A DNA stretch of 40,870 bases from positions 1-40,870 of the forward strand of contig PLMK01000008.1 in assembly GCA_003142475.1 (NCBI GenBank), written 5' to 3'. This stretch comes from Ignavibacteriota bacterium (GTDB lineage: Bacteria; Bacteroidota; Ignavibacteria; UBA10030). The position numbers and the translations under genes are program-made. Below the pieces are notes generated by a model. The model ran no database searches, was not told the origin of the DNA, and worked only from the letters and a program-made list of their open reading frames with translations. Positions 24,659 through 33,046 of the stretch are shown here, piece by piece (positions within the stretch are counted from its first letter, which is position 1; every line of letters starts with the position of its first letter).

Positions 24659-24709
24659 CTCCGGCCTTCCAGTTCCGAATTGTTATATCTGGGAGGTCGG
24701 AGTTTTTTT
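24659..24709 (+). terminator. Strong terminator ending the dcw operon
   Basis: The 14-base arms CTCCGGCCTTCCAG (24659-24672) and CTGGGAGGTCGGAG (24689-24702) pair fully, with two G-U pairs, and are followed by seven T residues. This isolates the dcw operon from the arsenic/mercury locus downstream. Confidence 0.92.
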
Positions 24710-24742: not shown

Positions 24743-24781
24743 TTGCTTTTTTGAAACTTCTATCGTATTATTACGATAGAA
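24743..24781 (+). promoter_or_regulatory. arsR promoter with overlapping ArsR operator
   Basis: TTGCTT (24743-24748) and TATTAT (24766-24771) are 17 bases apart, a good sigma-70 pair. A perfect inverted repeat with 10-base arms, TTCTATCGTA/TACGATAGAA around TTAT (24758-24781), covers the -10 element. Its core, ATCGTATTATTACGAT, has the same ATCG-N8-CGAT form as the site at 25127. It ends five bases before the arsR ATG, so the regulator should repress itself. Confidence 0.78.
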
Positions 24782-24786
24782 AAACT

Positions 24787-25107
24787 ATGGGAACCTCAAA
24801 GAAAGAAGCTTTTAGTAATAGTCAGAATCGCCTTGCTGATTTGGCGAAAGCCTTGGCGCATCCGGCACGTATTGCGATCCTCGAATTTCTCGCCAAGAAG
24901 AATGCATGCATTTGCGGCGACATCGTCGAAGAACTTCCCCTGTCTCAAGCAACCGTCTCACAGCATCTTGCCGAGTTGAAACGTGTTGGACTTATTAAAG
25001 GTGATATTGAAGGACCACGAGTCTGTTATTGCATTAACCAGAAAGCATGGAGCGAGGCGAAACAGCTCCTGTCTCAATTTATGGTTACTGTAAAAAATTG
25101 TTGCTGA
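24787..25107 (+). CDS. arsR: ArsR/SmtB-family metalloid-responsive repressor
   Basis: A 106-residue winged-helix repressor. KALAHPARIAILEFL leads into the helix-turn-helix EELPLSQATVSQHLAELKRVGLI and the wing KGDIEGPRVCYCIN. C41-I-C43-G-D lies where classical ArsR has the CVCDL arsenite site. Further cysteine pairs occur at C80/C82 and at the C-terminus (C105-C106), so the exact sensor site is unclear; As(III), Sb(III) or Hg(II) are candidates. I chose the ATG at 24787, because the in-frame TTG at 24751 lies upstream of the predicted transcription start. It is the first gene of the arsenic/mercury locus, with an operator over its own promoter. Confidence 0.88.
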   Translation: MGTSKKEAFSNSQNRLADLAKALAHPARIAILEFLAKKNACICGDIVEELPLSQATVSQHLAELKRVGLIKGDIEGPRVCYCINQKAWSEAKQLLSQFMVTVKNCC

Positions 25108-25120
25108 TATTTTTTTACCC

Positions 25121-25149
25121 TAATCAATCGCAATATTGCGATATATGTT
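25121..25149 (+). promoter_or_regulatory. Second ArsR-type operator and possible promoter
   Basis: ATCGCAATATTGCGAT at 25127-25142 is a perfect 16-base palindrome with the same outer ATCG and CGAT and the same 8-base centre length as the arsR operator, and 12 of 16 bases agree. TAATCA and TATGTT flank it at 17-base spacing and may be a weak promoter whose spacer the operator fills. It lies between arsR and the nitroreductase gene that begins the arsC-hgcAB run. Confidence 0.65.
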
Positions 25150-25220
25150 TTAGGAGAACAAGTATAAATACTGAACAAGAAATTAGAGAAATAGTGGGTG
25201 AAAAAATACGGGGCTATAGA

Positions 25221-26108
25221 ATGAATAAGTCTATTGTATATATCATCAAACAACGCTTCTCTTGTCGCACATATCTTAAAAAACCAATAGAAGAAGATCA
25301 TCAGCGAGCTCTAATAGAATTTTTAGAATCGAACCACACAGGGCCTCTTGGAACACGGGCACGGTTTGCGCTCATTGCCGCGACCGAGTATGATAGAAAA
25401 TCTCTCAAAGGACTTGGAACCTATGGATTTATCAAGGACGCAGCAGGTTTCATTGTTGGAGCACTGGAACAAGAACCCAAAAATCTTGAAGACTATGGGT
25501 ATCTTTTGGAACATGCCGTTCTCTATGCCACCGATATCGGATTAGGAACATGCTGGCTTGGAGGATCTTTCACAAAAAGCAGTTTCGCAAAGAAGATTAC
25601 AGTAACAAGCACGGAAATAGTACCGGCAGTTGTTGCGGTTGGATACAGTGCGAGCAATGCTGATATCAGAAGTCAGATACGCAAGCGTGCTGGTGCTCAG
25701 CACCGGTTCCCCAAGGAACAATTATTCTTTGATAGATTTTTTGGAAATTCACTCAATAAAGAAAATATTCGTGAGTATGCTGATGTTCTCGAAATGGTTC
25801 GGTGGGCACCTTCAGCTTCAAATAAACAACCATGGCGAATTATCCGAAGTGACGGTGCTTGGCATTTCTATCTTCAACGGACTCAAGGGTATGGAAAGGG
25901 AACTCTGACTTTCAATTTATTACGGCTTGCTGATCTGCAGCGAATAGATATGGGAATCGCTATGTGCCACTTTGAGCTTGCAGCACATGAGTTCAATTTG
26001 CCAGGCAGATGGCTGGTTGATGAACCGGGAATTATAAAACCAGAAAATGTAGAGTATATAGCCAGCTGGACTACTGTTCCGAGTGAACGGTTGATAAATG
26101 AGGCATAG
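25221..26108 (+). CDS. Nitroreductase-family flavoprotein (TM1586-like)
   Basis: About 295 residues. The N-terminal IIKQRFSCRTYLKKPI is the phosphate-clamp motif of FMN-dependent nitroreductases. DIGLGTCWLGGSF is the usual second-half glycine motif, and VRWAPSASNKQPWRII repeats a nitroreductase-type cofactor contact. This gives an internally duplicated layout, as in putative TM1586-like nitroreductases. The frame is open back into arsR, but ATG at 25221 fits the family N-terminus; GTG at 25194 is an alternative. It ends at the arsC start with no gap, so it is in the same transcript as arsC and hgcAB. Its substrate is unknown; a redox role toward an arsenic or mercury species is only an inference from place. 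Confidence 0.78.
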   Translation: MNKSIVYIIKQRFSCRTYLKKPIEEDHQRALIEFLESNHTGPLGTRARFALIAATEYDRKSLKGLGTYGFIKDAAGFIVGALEQEPKNLEDYGYLLEHAVLYATDIGLGTCWLGGSFTKSSFAKKITVTSTEIVPAVVAVGYSASNADIRSQIRKRAGAQHRFPKEQLFFDRFFGNSLNKENIREYADVLEMVRWAPSASNKQPWRIIRSDGAWHFYLQRTQGYGKGTLTFNLLRLADLQRIDMGIAMCHFELAAHEFNLPGRWLVDEPGIIKPENVEYIASWTTVPSERLINEA

Positions 26109-26552
26109 ATGATGTGTATGTCAGAACGTATTCTTATTCTTTGCACAGGCAATTCCTGCAGAAGTCAAATGGCTGAAGGATTTATGAAAAGTCTTGATCC
26201 AACCCTAGATGTATTTTCCGCTGGAACAGCGCCCGCATCTCGTGTAAGTTCCAAAACTATTGCCGTGATGAAAGAAATCGGTATTAGTCTCGAAAAAGCA
26301 TATCCAAAACATGTTGATCAATTTGTTGGCGAGTCATTCGATTATGTTATCACTGTCTGTGATCATGCAAAAGAAACATGTCCGGTTTTTCTTGGAAATG
26401 TGAAACAACGATTACACATCGGATTAAAAGATCCGGCAAATGCGACAGGGACTGAGGAAGAAGTAATGCAAGTGTATAGGCGTGTGCGGGATGAGATGAG
26501 AGAACGGTTCAATAACTTTTATCGTACAATTTTACTTCCTTATCGAGGTTAA
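26109..26552 (+). CDS. arsC: Thioredoxin-coupled arsenate reductase ArsC
   Basis: A 147-residue protein of the low-molecular-weight phosphatase fold that reduces arsenate to arsenite. The P-loop is C12-T-G-N-S-C-R18, with S19. C84 and C91 in VCDHAKETCP form the redox pair. The three cysteines have the same spacing as C10/C82/C89 of the well-studied staphylococcal ArsC, so thioredoxin is the expected donor. GAGG lies five bases before the first ATG; ATGs at 26112 and 26118 are alternatives. hgcA follows after three bases with its own GAGG inside the arsC end, so arsC and hgcA are tightly joined. Confidence 0.93.
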   Translation: MMCMSERILILCTGNSCRSQMAEGFMKSLDPTLDVFSAGTAPASRVSSKTIAVMKEIGISLEKAYPKHVDQFVGESFDYVITVCDHAKETCPVFLGNVKQRLHIGLKDPANATGTEEEVMQVYRRVRDEMRERFNNFYRTILLPYRG

Positions 26553-26555
26553 ATT

Positions 26556-27719
26556 ATGGAATGCTCTGATCAACAATGTTGTGCCGGTAATTCAGACAAG
26601 CTCATATCCATTCAAACAAATGTTTCTGCTCGTACATGCGGCTGTCATACAGCAGACAACGAAACAGATCATGATTTACATGCCAAACATTACATCGTTG
26701 GTACTATTCAAACACCGGCAGGTGTAATTTCGCAGATTTCATCCCGCCTTGACTTGAAAGATTATCTTGGTGCTTTCAGGGTTCGCTGGGGAATTCGACG
26801 AGATCGTTACCGAGTCGATCCAGGGCTGTATGCAGTTGGCACGCCAAATGAACATTCGGATGTTCTCGTTACTGCAAATTATAAACTCTCCTTCGATACA
26901 GTGCGTAAGAATCTCAATGGATTGAATGTATGGCTTCTCATTTTGGATACGAAAGGAGTTAATGTATGGTGTTCAGCCGGAAAAGGAACATTTGGAACAA
27001 AAGAACTTATAAATCGAATACACTTAAGTTCTCTTGACAAAATTGTCCAACATAAGCGAATCATTCTTCCACAGCTTGGTGCGGTCGGTGTCGCAGCACA
27101 TCTGGTAAAAGAATCTTCTGGATTTACTGTTATTTACGGACCTGTTCGAGCATCTGATATTCCACCATTCATACGTACAGGTTATAAAACAACTAAAGAA
27201 ATGAGACGTGTAAATTTCGGCTGGTATGATCGATTAAAACTTATTCCGAATGATCTCATCTATAATGTACGATACCTTGTTATATTACTGGCATTCTTTT
27301 CTCTTCTTTCAGGAATCAATGCAGATGGATTTTCTCTTCGACAAGCATCTGCACACATAATATTTCTTTCACAAATAATATTAGCAGGATATATTTCTGG
27401 AATAGTCCTAACTCCTCTACTGCTCCCGTATTTATTTTTTCGCAGTTTTTCTTTTAAGGGATTCCTCATGGGAACTATTATTTCATCAATCATTGTCTTA
27501 GCAGAGACATTTGAAAATACCATCTATGTCATTCCTACGATATTCTTTCTTCTTTCCGGTATTTCCTCGTTTCTTGCAATGAATTTTATTGGAGCGTCAA
27601 CATTTACATCACTTGCAGGAGTTAAGAAAGAAATGAAAATTGCAGTGCCGATACAGATAGCATCAGGAATAATTGCAGTGGTTCTTGTCATACTTAATGC
27701 TCTACTCTCTGGAAGGTAA
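26556..27719 (+). CDS. hgcA: Mercury methylation corrinoid protein HgcA
   Basis: A 387-residue membrane-bound corrinoid protein that transfers a methyl group to Hg(II), with HgcB as electron donor. The soluble corrinoid-binding domain (about residues 45-225) has FRVRWGIRRDRYRVDPGLYAVG, VTANYKLSFD and the cap-helix motif N136-V-W-C139-S-A-G-K143 followed by GTFGT. Cys139 is the expected lower-axial cobalt ligand. ILPQLGAVGVAAH and VIYGPVRASDIP are also family-typical. Five membrane spans follow (residues 240-385). Two oddities: the usual NVWCA(A/G)GK has Ser at its fifth place, and the N-terminus is an extra Cys-rich tail (C3, C8, C9, C28, C30). GAGG eight bases upstream supports the start. 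Confidence 0.95.
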   Translation: MECSDQQCCAGNSDKLISIQTNVSARTCGCHTADNETDHDLHAKHYIVGTIQTPAGVISQISSRLDLKDYLGAFRVRWGIRRDRYRVDPGLYAVGTPNEHSDVLVTANYKLSFDTVRKNLNGLNVWLLILDTKGVNVWCSAGKGTFGTKELINRIHLSSLDKIVQHKRIILPQLGAVGVAAHLVKESSGFTVIYGPVRASDIPPFIRTGYKTTKEMRRVNFGWYDRLKLIPNDLIYNVRYLVILLAFFSLLSGINADGFSLRQASAHIIFLSQIILAGYISGIVLTPLLLPYLFFRSFSFKGFLMGTIISSIIVLAETFENTIYVIPTIFFLLSGISSFLAMNFIGASTFTSLAGVKKEMKIAVPIQIASGIIAVVLVILNALLSGR

Positions 27720-27723
27720 ATCC

Positions 27724-28029
27724 ATGAACAGATTACGATATTATTCTGAGGTTGTAACTCTTCAATTGATTCAAGAGAAATGCAATAATTGCGGTATGTG
27801 TGTTAAAGTGTGTCCGCATGAAGTTTTCGAGTTGAAAGATAAGAAGGTTCGCATTATTGGCCGAGATTTTTGCATGGAATGCGGCGCATGCAAACAAAAT
27901 TGCCCGCAAGGAGCAATTCTGCTTGATGTCGGAGATGGATGCGGATGTGCTGCCGGAATCATTCAAGGTGCATTTAATGGAACAGCTCCAACTTGTGGTG
28001 GCCCGGATGAAGGAACGTGCTGTAATTAG
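27724..28029 (+). CDS. hgcB: Mercury methylation ferredoxin HgcB
   Basis: A 101-residue ferredoxin with two [4Fe-4S] motifs, C20-x2-C23-x2-C26-x3-C30 and C50-x2-C53-x2-C56-x3-C60. Cysteines also occur at C73 and C75 (GDGCGCA), C91, and a terminal pair C99-C100 before the last Asn. An extra Cys after the second cluster and a C-terminal Cys pair are hallmarks of HgcB, where they are thought to bind and pass Hg(II). HgcB reduces the corrinoid of HgcA. GGAAGG at the end of hgcA sits seven bases before the ATG at 27724. The frame is open further upstream inside hgcA, but that part is a shadow. Confidence 0.95.
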   Translation: MNRLRYYSEVVTLQLIQEKCNNCGMCVKVCPHEVFELKDKKVRIIGRDFCMECGACKQNCPQGAILLDVGDGCGCAAGIIQGAFNGTAPTCGGPDEGTCCN

Positions 28030-28032
28030 CAT

Positions 28033-28060
28033 AATGATTTCTGTAAAAAAATCATTTATG
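28033..28060 (+). terminator. AT-rich hairpin after hgcB, possible weak terminator
   Basis: AATGATTT (28033-28040) pairs perfectly with AAATCATT (28049-28056) around an 8-base loop. TATGGTTCTTCTTTT follows, which is T-rich but interrupted. It may end or attenuate the arsR-to-hgcB transcript. Confidence 0.4.
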
Positions 28061-28124
28061 GTTCTTCTTTTATCAATATAATGTTATGGTTTAGAAATAT
28101 TAAAAGAGAAATTCCAAAAACGAT

Positions 28125-28153
28125 TTTTCATCAGAGATTATTATTGCGATAAA
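28125..28153 (+). promoter_or_regulatory. Degenerate third ArsR-type site with possible promoter
   Basis: The sequence AGATTATTATTGCGAT (28135-28150) keeps the right half of the operator. TATTATTGCGAT differs at one base from the TATTATTACGAT of the arsR site, but the left ATCG is lost. TTTTCA (28125-28130) and GATAAA (28148-28153) are 17 bases apart and could drive the flavin reductase-acr3 unit. Confidence 0.45.
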
Positions 28154-28168
28154 ATAAAGGAATTAATT

Positions 28169-28747
28169 ATGAAACTCTTCCTTCCAGCACAAACAATATT
28201 GCTCCCCTCTCCGGTGCTCATCATTGGAACCTATGGTTCTGATGGAAAGCCTAATATCATGAATGCCGCCTGGGGAGGAATCGCATCAAGTAAACCGCCA
28301 TGTATCAGTGTGTCTCTCAGGGAGGCGACACTTAGTTATCACAACATCAAACAGACCGAGGCATTCACAGTGAATATTCCCTCTGAAAAGTATCTCAAGG
28401 AGGCCGACTTTGTTGGTATGGTATCGGGAAGAAAGTACGACAAATTCAAGGAAACCCACCTCACACCGGAAAAGAGCAAATTGATCAATGCCCCAATTGT
28501 AAAGGAATTTCCCTATGCTCTTGAATGCAAGCTGGTTAGGCAGGTCGATCTTGGCCGGCATACAATGTTCATTGGAGAAATTGTTGGAATGGTCGCTGAT
28601 AGCGAGGTTCTAAATTCAAATCAACTTCCCGACATCGAGAAGGTACGACCAATGTTATGGGGTTCATTCGGCAGTATGGCGTATTATAATGTCGGCGACA
28701 AACTTGGCGATGCGTTCTCTGTTGGAAACGAATTACAACGATGCTAA
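28169..28747 (+). CDS. Flavin reductase-like domain protein
   Basis: A 192-residue protein of the flavin reductase-like, FMN-binding split-barrel family. PVLIIGTYGSDGKPNIMNAAWGG is the typical N-terminal strand pair. KPPCISVSLREATLSYHNI and FTVNIPSEKYLKEADFVG give the flavin-contact region, and ECKLVRQVDLGRHTMFIGEI comes later. Such proteins bind FMN and act as NAD(P)H:flavin reductases or as small redox proteins. AAAGGA eight bases before the ATG supports the start. It lies between hgcB and acr3, after a degenerate ArsR-type operator. Its substrate is not known. Confidence 0.85.
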   Translation: MKLFLPAQTILLPSPVLIIGTYGSDGKPNIMNAAWGGIASSKPPCISVSLREATLSYHNIKQTEAFTVNIPSEKYLKEADFVGMVSGRKYDKFKETHLTPEKSKLINAPIVKEFPYALECKLVRQVDLGRHTMFIGEIVGMVADSEVLNSNQLPDIEKVRPMLWGSFGSMAYYNVGDKLGDAFSVGNELQRC

Positions 28748-28766
28748 CTAGAGAAAAGAATACACA

Positions 28767-29834
28767 ATGACTTCTCTGAAAAAGCAATTATCGTTTGTAG
28801 ATAGATTCTTAACACTCTGGATATTTCTAGCAATGTTCATTGGTGTCTTTTCAGGCTATTTTTTCCCAGGAATTGTACATTTCTGGAATTCTTTTCAGAG
28901 CGGGACAACGAACATCCCGATAGCTATAGGTCTAATTCTGATGATGTATCCACCGCTCGCCAAGGTGAAGTATGAAGAACTAGGAGATGTTTTTAAAAAC
29001 ACGAAATTGCTTCTCCTTTCACTTATACAAAACTGGCTTGTTGGACCGGTATTAATGTTCATCCTTGCTGTCATCTTCCTTCGGGGATATCCGGAGTATA
29101 TGGCTGGCCTCATTATGATCGGCCTTGCTCGATGTATTGCAATGGTGATTGTTTGGAACGAACTGGCAAAAGGAGATACAGAGTACGCCGCAGGACTTGT
29201 CGCATTCAACTCAATTTTTCAGGTGTTATTTTTCTCAGTGTATGCTTATGTATTTCTCACCGTGTTTCCTGCTTGGCTTGGTTTGCAAACCTTCGCAGTT
29301 AATATTACGATAGGACAAATAGCGGAAAGTGTTTTTATTTATCTTGGTATTCCTTTCATTGCCGGTATTATCACAAGGTTCACATTGCTCAGACTGAAGA
29401 ACAAGCAATGGTACGAGCAGAAGTTTATTCCAAAGATATCGCCCATTACTCTGATTGCACTTTTATTCACTATCATCGTTATGTTTTCGCTCAAAGGTGA
29501 ATACATCGTTAAAATTCCACTTGATGTCATTCGCATCGCTATTCCACTCATAGTGTATTTTGTGATAATGTTTTTGATCTCGTTTTATCTCGCAAAGAAA
29601 TCCGGAGCCGATTACGCAAAGTCCGCAACACTTTCCTTTACTGCCGCGAGCAATAATTTTGAATTAGCGATAGCAGTCGCAATTGCAGTTTTTGGAATTA
29701 ACTCAGGAGTTGCATTTGCAGCCGTCATAGGTCCGTTAGTCGAAGTTCCGGTTCTCATTTCTTTAGTAAATGTTGCATTGTGGTTTAGAAAAAAGTATTT
29801 TGTAGATGGAGAAGGAATTTCTGTTCCTTCATAA
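28767..29834 (+). CDS. acr3: ACR3-family arsenite efflux permease
   Basis: A 355-residue inner-membrane exporter with about ten predicted spans that expels arsenite made by Ars[22 protein letters not shown] and [14 protein letters not shown] at the N-terminus, [17 protein letters not shown], the conserved cysteine in [19 protein letters not shown] and [20 protein letters not shown] are all ACR3 marks. It is separated from arsC by hgcAB and the flavin reductase gene, instead of being next to it as in common ars operons. Confidence 0.95.
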
Positions 29835-29864
29835 TTTCCGAACAAATTTTAAAAGGATGTCTCG

Positions 29865-30311
29865 ATGAGCACTAAACCAGATCAAGCAGCAGCAACTTAT
29901 ATTAATGGATTTAATTGCGCACAAGCAGTGTTCTCTACCTATGCAGAAGAATTTGGTATTGATCGAACCAATGCGCTTAAAATCTCGTGCGGGTTCGGTG
30001 CAGGAATGGGACGCCGTCAAGAAGTGTGCGGTGCAGTGTCGGGAGCAATTTTACTCATCGGTTGCAAACATGGTAAGACCATAAGAGAAGACAATGCCGC
30101 AAATGATTTGACATATAAGCTTGTAAGAGAACTCTCAGAAAAATTCATTGCCAAACATGGAAGCATTTCCTGCAAGGAGCTACTCGGTTGTAATCTACTG
30201 ACACCGGAAGGCCAGCAATTTTATAAAGAAAACAATTTTCGAGATTGTAAATGTGCCCCGTATGTTCATGATGCAGCTGAATTAGCAGAAGCAATGCTGA
30301 TGAAAGATTGA
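29865..30311 (+). CDS. C_GCAxxG_C_C family cysteine-rich protein
   Basis: A 148-residue protein with the spaced cysteines that define this family: FNCAQAVF, ISCGFGAGMGRRQEVCGAVSGA, LLIGCKHG, ISCKELLGCN and DCKCAPYV. The family is thought to bind a redox or metal cofactor, and members often sit next to transporters or oxidoreductases, but no function is proven. AAAAGGATG upstream gives a ribosome site about seven bases before the ATG at 29865. It follows acr3 by 30 bases and is probably the last gene of the locus, before a hairpin at 30434. Confidence 0.88.
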   Translation: MSTKPDQAAATYINGFNCAQAVFSTYAEEFGIDRTNALKISCGFGAGMGRRQEVCGAVSGAILLIGCKHGKTIREDNAANDLTYKLVRELSEKFIAKHGSISCKELLGCNLLTPEGQQFYKENNFRDCKCAPYVHDAAELAEAMLMKD

Positions 30312-30433
30312 GCTGATGAAAGATGAAGGCGAAAGAATTCTTGGCTCTCTCCTGAAGTTTTCGTATCTTATAAAAGAATGATTATACTTTTCCATAGCAA
30401 ACTTACACCACCGTAACTTTCCCTCTTTTTTCG

Positions 30434-30456
30434 GGGCATATCCATGCCCTGCTTTT
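30434..30456 (+). terminator. Candidate terminator of the arsenic/mercury locus
   Basis: GGGCAT (30434-30439) pairs perfectly with ATGCCC (30444-30449) around ATCC, followed by TGCTTTTC. The T run is short. It lies between the last cysteine-rich gene and prfC. Confidence 0.45.
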
Positions 30457-32167: not shown

Positions 32168-33046
32168 ATGCCTATGAATCATGCCGATCAAACACTTCAG
32201 CGCCGCTTTGCGCTTTCTCTTGGAATCTCGGTATTCATTTTTGTTGCTGAACTTGCAGGTGGATTCTGGACAGGAAGCCTCGCACTTCTCAGTGATTCTG
32301 CCCATGTTTTCCTCGATATTTTCGCTCTTGCATTCAGCTATATTGCTCTTCGTGTTTCCACTCTCCCTGCTGATGATAGGCATACATTCGGTTGGCATCG
32401 TCTGGAAGTGTTTGCAGGATTAGCAAACGGGATAACATTATTTGCCGTTACCATCACGATTTTTTATGAAGCGTGGCAGCGTATTAAATCGCCGGTTGTA
32501 GTTCATAGTGCAGAGATGCTGGTGATCGCTGTCATCGGATTGATTGCCAATCTTATTACAGCGCAGCTCTTAAAAGAACATCATCAACACGACCTTAATG
32601 TTCGCAGTGCTTTTCTTCACGTCGTTGGAGATGCCTTATCCTCCGTTGGCGTCATCATCGGCGGTATTGTTATGCTCTTCACCGGCTGGATTATCATTGA
32701 CCCCATCATCAGTGTGTTGATTTGTATATTTCTCTTCTTCGGTTCATGGAGAGTTGTACGAAGTTCTGTACATATTCTTTTTGAGGGAACTCCGGAAGGT
32801 ATTTCATTGTCAGATGTCGCTCGTGCCATCAGTGAAATTGATGGAGTCCGCGAAGTTCATGATTTGCATATTTGGAGCATTTGTTCGGGATATCCGGCAT
32901 TAAGCGTTCACGTTTGTGCGGATTTCGATAGAACAACAACCGAACGTTTGTCCGCTATCAAAAAGATGCTTCAAGAGCGATTCGGGATTGAGCACACAAC
33001 GATTCAGATTGATTCAGTAAATTGCGGACAGGGTTTGAGCGTTTAG
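32168..33046 (+). CDS. Cation diffusion facilitator (zinc-type efflux)
   Basis: A 292-residue CDF-family H+-coupled exporter with six spans and a C-terminal cytoplasmic domain. The transport site is H46-x3-D50 in LLSDSAHVFLD, and a second HxxxD lies in SAFLHVVGDALSS. This HD/HD set is typical of Zn(II)-type CDF proteins such as CzcD/ZitB. HTFGWHRLEVFAGL is a family motif. Residues from about 205 (VARAISEIDGVREVHDLHIW) form the metal-sensing cytoplasmic domain. The ATG at 32168 has a second ATG six bases on. Cd or Co transport is also possible. Confidence 0.9.
   Translation: MPMNHADQTLQRRFALSLGISVFIFVAELAGGFWTGSLALLSDSAHVFLDIFALAFSYIALRVSTLPADDRHTFGWHRLEVFAGLANGITLFAVTITIFYEAWQRIKSPVVVHSAEMLVIAVIGLIANLITAQLLKEHHQHDLNVRSAFLHVVGDALSSVGVIIGGIVMLFTGWIIIDPIISVLICIFLFFGSWRVVRSSVHILFEGTPEGISLSDVARAISEIDGVREVHDLHIWSICSGYPALSVHVCADFDRTTTERLSAIKKMLQERFGIEHTTIQIDSVNCGQGLSV

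Follow-up and report, generated by a model that had tools for sequence, protein, structure and literature searches.

The closest described counterparts of the locus reported here are the gene neighbourhoods of McDaniel et al. (2020, PMC7438021), in which, in several cases, acr3 and arsC flank the mercury methylation genes hgcA and hgcB and both arsR and arsM are close by. In Pseudodesulfovibrio mercurii ND132 (Gionfriddo et al. 2023, via PMC10349881 and PMC12953829) an ArsR-family gene lies upstream of hgcAB, and the available text of PMC10349881 cites experimental confirmation both of ArsR control of hgcAB and of an arsenic response. According to the same source, 14 of 31 confirmed methylators carry arsR no more than three genes upstream of hgcA; it treats the reason for the microbial retention of hgcAB as an open question. 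An earlier sequence-only reading of the DNA studied here had noted that ArsR-type regulators next to hgcAB are reported in other methylators. The DNA in question is a stretch of 40,870 nt from an Ignavibacteriota bacterium (assembly GCA_003142475.1, contig PLMK01000008.1, positions 1 to 40,870 of the forward strand; hereafter the window), in which hgcAB lie within an arsenic detoxification locus at positions 24,743-30,456. The window is like the neighbourhoods of McDaniel et al. in that acr3 and arsC flank hgcAB, and like ND132, by description only, in its upstream ArsR-family gene. The arrangement is not new, having been described by McDaniel et al. 2020 (PMC7438021). What is new here are putative operators and what is left of a deleted arsM; the available text of that paper, compared by description rather than gene by gene, names neither operators nor arsM remnants, and among the titles and abstract openings listed by searches of an open-access library none was on operators upstream of hgcAB or on arsM remnants beside hgcAB.

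We consider it likely that the locus forms a metal(loid) detoxification operon under ArsR control and that hgcAB are part of it. Eight genes, all on the plus strand, run from arsR (24787-25107) through a TM1586-type nitroreductase gene (25221-26108), an arsC-like gene (26109-26552), hgcA (26556-27719), hgcB (27724-28029), a flavin reductase-like gene (28169-28747) and acr3 (28767-29834) to the gene of a C_GCAxxG_C_C family protein (29865-30311), and are bracketed by two predicted terminators on the same strand. The first (24659-24702; fold −25.2 kcal/mol, z −5.7, none of 200 shuffles as good, with a U tract following) lies after ftsZ (24579), the last gene of a cell-division (dcw) cluster upstream of the locus. 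The second (30432-30451; z −3.4), 5' of prfC, is weak on its own because a scan of the region returned 6 such sites against 5.0 expected. Gaps of 207 nt (ftsZ to arsR) and 113 nt (arsR to nitroreductase) are followed by gaps of 0 nt (nitroreductase to arsC), 3 nt (arsC to hgcA) and 4 nt (hgcA to hgcB), the tight run thus extending from the nitroreductase gene through hgcB; the remaining gaps are 139 nt (hgcB to flavin reductase), 19 nt (flavin reductase to acr3), 30 nt (acr3 to C_GCAxxG) and 190 nt (C_GCAxxG to prfC). The sequence-only reading, which had placed both hgc genes inside an ars set with 3-4 base gaps from arsC through hgcB and had called HgcA and HgcB clear, is borne out in order, strand, coordinates and gene identity, with the tight run starting one gene earlier, at the nitroreductase. 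The arsR-hgcAB-acr3 locus is real and looks intact, and its type has been described before. A sigma-70 promoter scan (9 found, 16.3 expected) was uninformative, and no Rfam family was found in the window. A cation diffusion facilitator (CDF) metal transporter is encoded 3' of prfC (32168-33043).

HgcA passes the NCBIfam equivalog NF040863 (411.3 bits against a cut-off of 275) and carries the cap-helix signature N-V/I-W-C-A/S-A/S-G-K as NVWCSAGK, with the cap cysteine at position 139. The motif is NVWCAAGK in 73 and NVWCSAGK in 8 of the 83 HgcA rows compared, with 2 unmatched. Five hydrophobic clusters between residues 233 and 387 correspond, by hydropathy only, to the C-terminal membrane domain. 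HgcB scores 106.6 bits on NF040864 (cut-off 99), contains two CxxCxxCxxxC (4Fe-4S) motifs and ends in CCN, which provides the terminal Cys pair. Among the best 80 of 541 relatives the nearest named HgcA proteins are those of Ignavibacteriae bacterium fen_1299 (69% identity) and fen_1254 (58%). Relative genomes and sequence stretches are denoted by G and L numbers, respectively; G004 and G003 are from the genus and family of the window. The 16S rRNA sequences amounted to fragments only and were left aside. Compared with G004, hgcA has a dN of 0.22 and a dS of 1.5 and looks to be under constraint, and the host would be predicted to methylate mercury. Identity between the window and G004 (L013) is 96% for HgcB, 69% for HgcA and 65% for ArsC. 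The genome's other PF03599 match (L002) scores as part of the methionine synthase MetH, a possible source of corrinoid-bound methyl groups. No hgcA match was found among 72,556 plasmid records.

The regulator falls within the ArsR/SmtB subfamily (NF033788, 72.5 bits; cut-off 55) and has cysteines at positions 41, 43, 80, 82, 105 and 106, of which the CxC formed by Cys 41 and 43 is a suggestive hint, no firmer, of a response to As(III). Its start was taken as the ATG; a longer alternative frame from a TTG at 24751 would include the first of the operators described below. The protein filed as ArsC-like has the thioredoxin-type arsenate reductase fold (PF01451, above cut-off) and scores 118.8 bits on the equivalog TIGR02691, below the cut-off of 174.3. 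Its Cys 12, 84 and 91 align with cysteines of Bacillus subtilis ArsC (1jl3) that we take to be the catalytic set. Acr3 scores 461.6 bits on TIGR00832 (cut-off 282.8), and the genome has no other Acr3 match. The genes for regulator, reductase and efflux are co-directional, yet a 139-nt gap precedes the flavin reductase-acr3 part. The nitroreductase matches PF14512 (124 bits; cut-off 27), the flavin reductase-like protein PF01613 and the C_GCAxxG_C_C protein TIGR01909 (81 bits; cut-off 47.4).

Control by ArsR is suggested by two near-identical 16-bp palindromes on either side of arsR. Putative operator 1, ATCGTATTATTACGAT (24762-24777, plus strand), lies within a repeat with 10-nt arms (24758-24781) and ends 9 nt 5' of the arsR ATG, while putative operator 2, the perfect palindrome ATCGCAATATTGCGAT (25127-25142, plus strand), lies 19 nt 3' of the arsR stop codon. 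The pattern ATCGNANTATTNCGAT, built from these two sites, occurs at three places in the window's own genome, two of them at this locus, and at 18 places across 15 genomes, 14 of which are at ars operons of 10 genomes; the reversed pattern, used as a control in the same 15 genomes, has none. The other four places (in G000, G005, G026 and G027) are away from ars operons, with no query match in the sequence stretches around them, and the pattern does not occur in G001, G002, G007 and G009. Two sites each are present at the ars operons of the window genome, G003, G004 and G006, and one each at those of G017, G024, G026, G027, G028 and G029. The first site ends 9 nt 5' of the arsR start in 8 of the 10 genomes, at 8 nt in G017 and at 151 nt in G029. 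In the three hgcAB-bearing relatives (G003, G004 and G006) both sites occupy the same positions, and the spacing of operator 1 is identical. The six single-site genomes have no HgcA match, and the site there precedes the arsR of an arsR-arsM unit; arsC and acr3 follow in G024, G028 and G029, the G026 contig ends within acr3, and G017 and G027 showed neither gene. The arsR-arsM-(arsN2)-arsC-acr3 operon of hgcA-lacking relatives has the same ArsR, Acr3 and operator type as the window, and differs in the presence of arsM, in having one operator rather than two, and in having neither hgcAB nor any nitroreductase or proC-like match. As the sites recur in three hgcAB-bearing and six hgcA-lacking relatives, hgcAB most likely lie behind the operators of a resident arsenic repressor, and we read the palindromes as the probable binding site of the family's arsenic repressor, with hgcAB downstream.

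A looser core, TCGYAANNTTRCGA, lies directly 5' of arsR in five Bacteroidota hgcA loci (L016, L028, L034, L075 and L089) and also at site 2 of G004. These are 6 sites in 1.18 Mb, whereas none of ten resampled sets had more than 1. It is not general, because only 5 of the 39 same-strand ArsR genes within 3 kb of hgcA, in the best 80 loci, have it. A third operator before the flavin reductase gene (half-site 28135-28150) was rejected, having 3 mismatches: when up to 3 mismatches are allowed the window has 11 matches, of which four are the two operators on both strands and the other seven are within the shuffle range (mean 3.9, maximum 10).

In the proposed mechanism ArsR would bind the two palindromic operators, one 5' and one directly 3' of its own gene, and would repress arsR and, from the second site, also the nitroreductase-arsC-hgcA-hgcB run, with read-through probably reaching the flavin reductase-acr3-C_GCAxxG part. 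ArsR would be released by a thiophilic inducer, for which As(III) is the likeliest candidate, ArsC would reduce arsenate and Acr3 export arsenite, and HgcA together with HgcB would transfer a corrinoid-bound methyl group to Hg(II). The genes with their family scores, the conservation of the operator sequences, the predicted terminators and the arsM remnants are what we observe; ArsR binding to the sites, the inducer, the transcript structure and mercury methylation are what we infer from sequence. The sequence-only reading had proposed that mercury methylation is part of an arsenic response; conserved ArsR-type operators, tight spacing and bounding predicted terminators support, as DNA anatomy, the placement of hgcAB in an arsenic-responsive unit. 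Neighbourhoods of this kind are already published, however, and the separation of arsC-acr3 from hgcAB in two close relatives, G006 and G007, tells against the proposal.

If the regulator were instead a broader soft-metal sensor, the inducer relevant to hgcAB would be Hg(II). For ArsR/SmtB proteins with Cys sites, responses to several metals are possible, and the whole genome has no MerA above cut-off, the best match scoring as dihydrolipoyl dehydrogenase; the absence of mer genes noted earlier for the window holds for MerA, the only mer product searched for. This ArsR type and its operator, however, also serve the arsR-arsM units of six hgcA-lacking relatives, which makes arsenic the simpler inducer and Hg(II) a rather unlikely one.

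The association of hgcAB with ars genes was examined in the best 80 of 541 confirmed hgcA relatives, a sample that leans to Bacteroidota because it consists of the most similar loci, and with queries from the window and G006 only, so that more distant ars genes were missed. Within 1 kb of hgcA there are 27 ArsR, 25 ArsC and 28 Acr3 genes on the same strand and 1, 0 and 0 on the opposite one; at 3-8 kb the corresponding numbers are 6, 1 and 1 and 1, 0 and 1. ArsC and Acr3 therefore cluster at hgcA more than expected by chance. Within 3 kb on the same strand ArsC or Acr3 is present in 37 of the 80 loci and both in 22. A synteny search, as suggested by the sequence-only reading, recovered the core of its gene order: exactly arsC-hgcA-hgcB-acr3 occurs in 14 of the 80, comprising 12 loci titled Bacteroidota together with G003 and G004. 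A membrane protein family (c0), CcdA-like by eye, lies no further than 5 kb from hgcA in 20 of 82 clustered sequences.

Among 98 genomes of the order, HgcA is above cut-off in seven (the window genome, G003, G004, G006, G007, G200 and G445), and in an even sample of the phylum in 2 of 395. G008 and G005 were rejected as cluster-lacking genomes; G008 is covered in part, and the G005 neighbourhood may be missing from the assembly because no FtsZ was found in it. In five of the seven (the window, G003, G004, G006 and G200) arsR is in the same unit as hgcAB. The order is arsR-arsM-arsN2-like-proC-like-nitroreductase-arsC-hgcA-hgcB-acr3 in G003 and arsR-nitroreductase-arsC-hgcA-hgcB-acr3 in G004, with no flavin reductase gene between hgcB and acr3 in either. 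In G006, which is split over contigs, arsR, an arsM/arsN2 fusion, a proC-like gene, the nitroreductase gene and hgcA are followed by the hgcA end and hgcB on another contig; G200 has arsR-arsM-two genes-hgcA-hgcB, and the G007 contig begins inside the nitroreductase gene, followed by hgcA and hgcB. The contigs of G007, G026 and G027 stop near the operon. In G006 two opposite-strand genes (L134, 1829-3637) lie between hgcB and C_GCAxxG, at the position of acr3 in the window, arsC-acr3 being on contig L136; tblastn found no acr3 remnant 3' of hgcB there. The membrane gene directly 5' of hgcA in G200 (L160, 7126-7842) gives a weak ArsG match, below cut-off. The TM1586-type nitroreductase gene is directly 5' of arsC-hgcA or hgcA in all five hgcA-bearing genomes of the family (the window; L013, L015, L135 and L158). 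It has no match in the ars units of the six hgcA-lacking relatives and is matched in 3 of the best 80 hgcA loci, all from the window's family; it may belong to the hgcAB insertion.

Bacteroidales arsR-arsC-hgcA-hgcB-acr3 units, among them L017, L019, L020, L022 and L023, share the core order and strand of the window, but lack any nitroreductase match; the five named have CITGD in ArsR where the window has CICGD. In the HgcA tree (83 rows) the window groups with other family members (99, starred) inside a 46-row clade of Bacteroidota and Ignavibacteria (99, starred) that also holds HgcA of these units. Of the trees of the ars proteins, from which rows below 60 bits (ArsR), 120 bits (ArsC) and 400 bits (Acr3) were dropped, those of ArsR and Acr3 place the window among its own family. 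Its Acr3 belongs to a starred, family-only set of seven rows (the window, G003, the unlinked copies of G006 and G007, and three hgcA-lacking genomes), which G004 joins at 87 while the family Acr3 proteins of G009, G011 and G023 are elsewhere, and its ArsR to a starred 10-row set of family members only; the hgcAB-linked Acr3 and ArsR copies of Bacteroidales are outside both sets. The ArsC tree does not resolve. The window's ars genes thus look resident in the family, which leaves two histories: repeated joining of hgcAB to ars operons, or an ancient arrangement with frequent loss. An approximately unbiased (AU) test on 54 of 84 HgcA rows, chosen by us, did not reject a single Ignavibacteria HgcA clade of all seven order members (p 0.19). 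Transfer of hgcAB from Bacteroidales to Ignavibacteria is accordingly unsupported, and, because the joint clade is not rejected, old inheritance with much loss is possible.

Several observations weigh against ArsR control of hgcAB. The operator pattern derives from the window's two sites, so that only the relatives test it, and operator 2 scores also as a small terminator-like hairpin. The 139 nt between hgcB and the flavin reductase gene contain a weak hairpin as well. Close relatives G006 and G007 have hgcAB beside the nitroreductase gene and arsC-acr3 on other contigs, and hgcA-hgcB of G445 are without any queried ars gene in 19 kb. More widely, in 33 of the 80 loci the 3 kb around hgcA contain no ArsR, ArsC, Acr3 or ArsM on its strand; in the available text of PMC10349881 only 4 of its own 35 hgcAB contigs carry ars genes, and arsR is on none of these, while that of PMC12953829 describes arsR as not near hgcAB in its metagenome-assembled genomes. 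The 33 loci and the unlinked arsC-acr3 of G006 and G007 would be expected if hgcAB merely keep company with metal-resistance genes where these gather, with neither ArsR control nor a tie to arsenic, and the frequent shifts in linkage (the arsC-or-acr3 label changes at least 15 times along the HgcA tree) point the same way. Mere company is nevertheless improbable, given that 25 of 25 ArsC and 28 of 28 Acr3 genes less than 1 kb from hgcA share its strand, that gaps from the nitroreductase gene to hgcB in the window are 0-4 nt, and that operator spacing is fixed in four hgcAB-bearing species.

The second operator also marks the place of a lost gene. In G006 and G003 operator 2 precedes arsM, and in the window and G004 it is retained 3' of arsR despite the loss of arsM. 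In the window, 3' of operator 2 and an AGGAG, the arsM start survives over about 18 codons (25164-25217, plus strand; DNA alignment to the start of G006 arsM, and tblastn), with ATA where G006 has the ATG start codon, and the nitroreductase gene comes directly afterwards. A tblastn search with ArsM residues 1-14 matched this putative remnant at 71% identity with an E of 0.04, modest alone, but the position is syntenic. The G004 scar joins about 12 arsM codons to the final 15 codons of a proC-like gene; the differing scars may represent two deletions, or one deletion and later erosion. At E up to 1e-40, ArsM is matched in 25 of 32 family genomes, covering 17 of 17 genera, but not in the window genome, G001, G004, G005, G007, G012 or the partly covered G008. 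The G003 ArsM was considered as a pseudogene with one TGA and rejected as such, since an intact 276-aa frame is followed by a separate arsN2-like frame; in G006 arsM and arsN2 are fused in one frame, the ArsN2 part scoring 123.5 against a cut-off of 125.

That arsenic is the selected substrate of HgcAB, forming a corrinoid-dependent methylation branch able to replace ArsM, is highly unlikely: the deletion of arsM beside intact hgcAB with differing end points in the window and G004, the lack of an ArsM match in G007 and the presence of ArsM in 2 of 5 hgcA-bearing against 23 of 26 hgcA-lacking family genomes (without G008; Fisher p 0.04, weak and ignoring kinship) would fit it, but arsM and hgcAB coexist in G003, G006, G200 and L031, L075 and L089, HgcA keeps the methylator motif, and we know of no arsenic activity of HgcAB. 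We likewise give little credence to the fuller account in which hgcAB were taken into a resident arsenic regulon, kept while arsM was deleted and selected within the arsenic response, by methylating either arsenic or accompanying mercury, so that arsenic exposure would set methylmercury output. Gene order by itself is no proof of joint function, and an arsenic-handling role of hgcAB is at most a possibility.

For ArsR control of hgcAB itself, the putative operator pair and the hgcA-lacking sister operons make arsenic control of methylmercury formation directly testable by DNA binding and expression, in a lineage that lies far from the model strain ND132. If such control is real, the arsenic load of places in which such bacteria abound would be among the predictors of methylmercury formation there.

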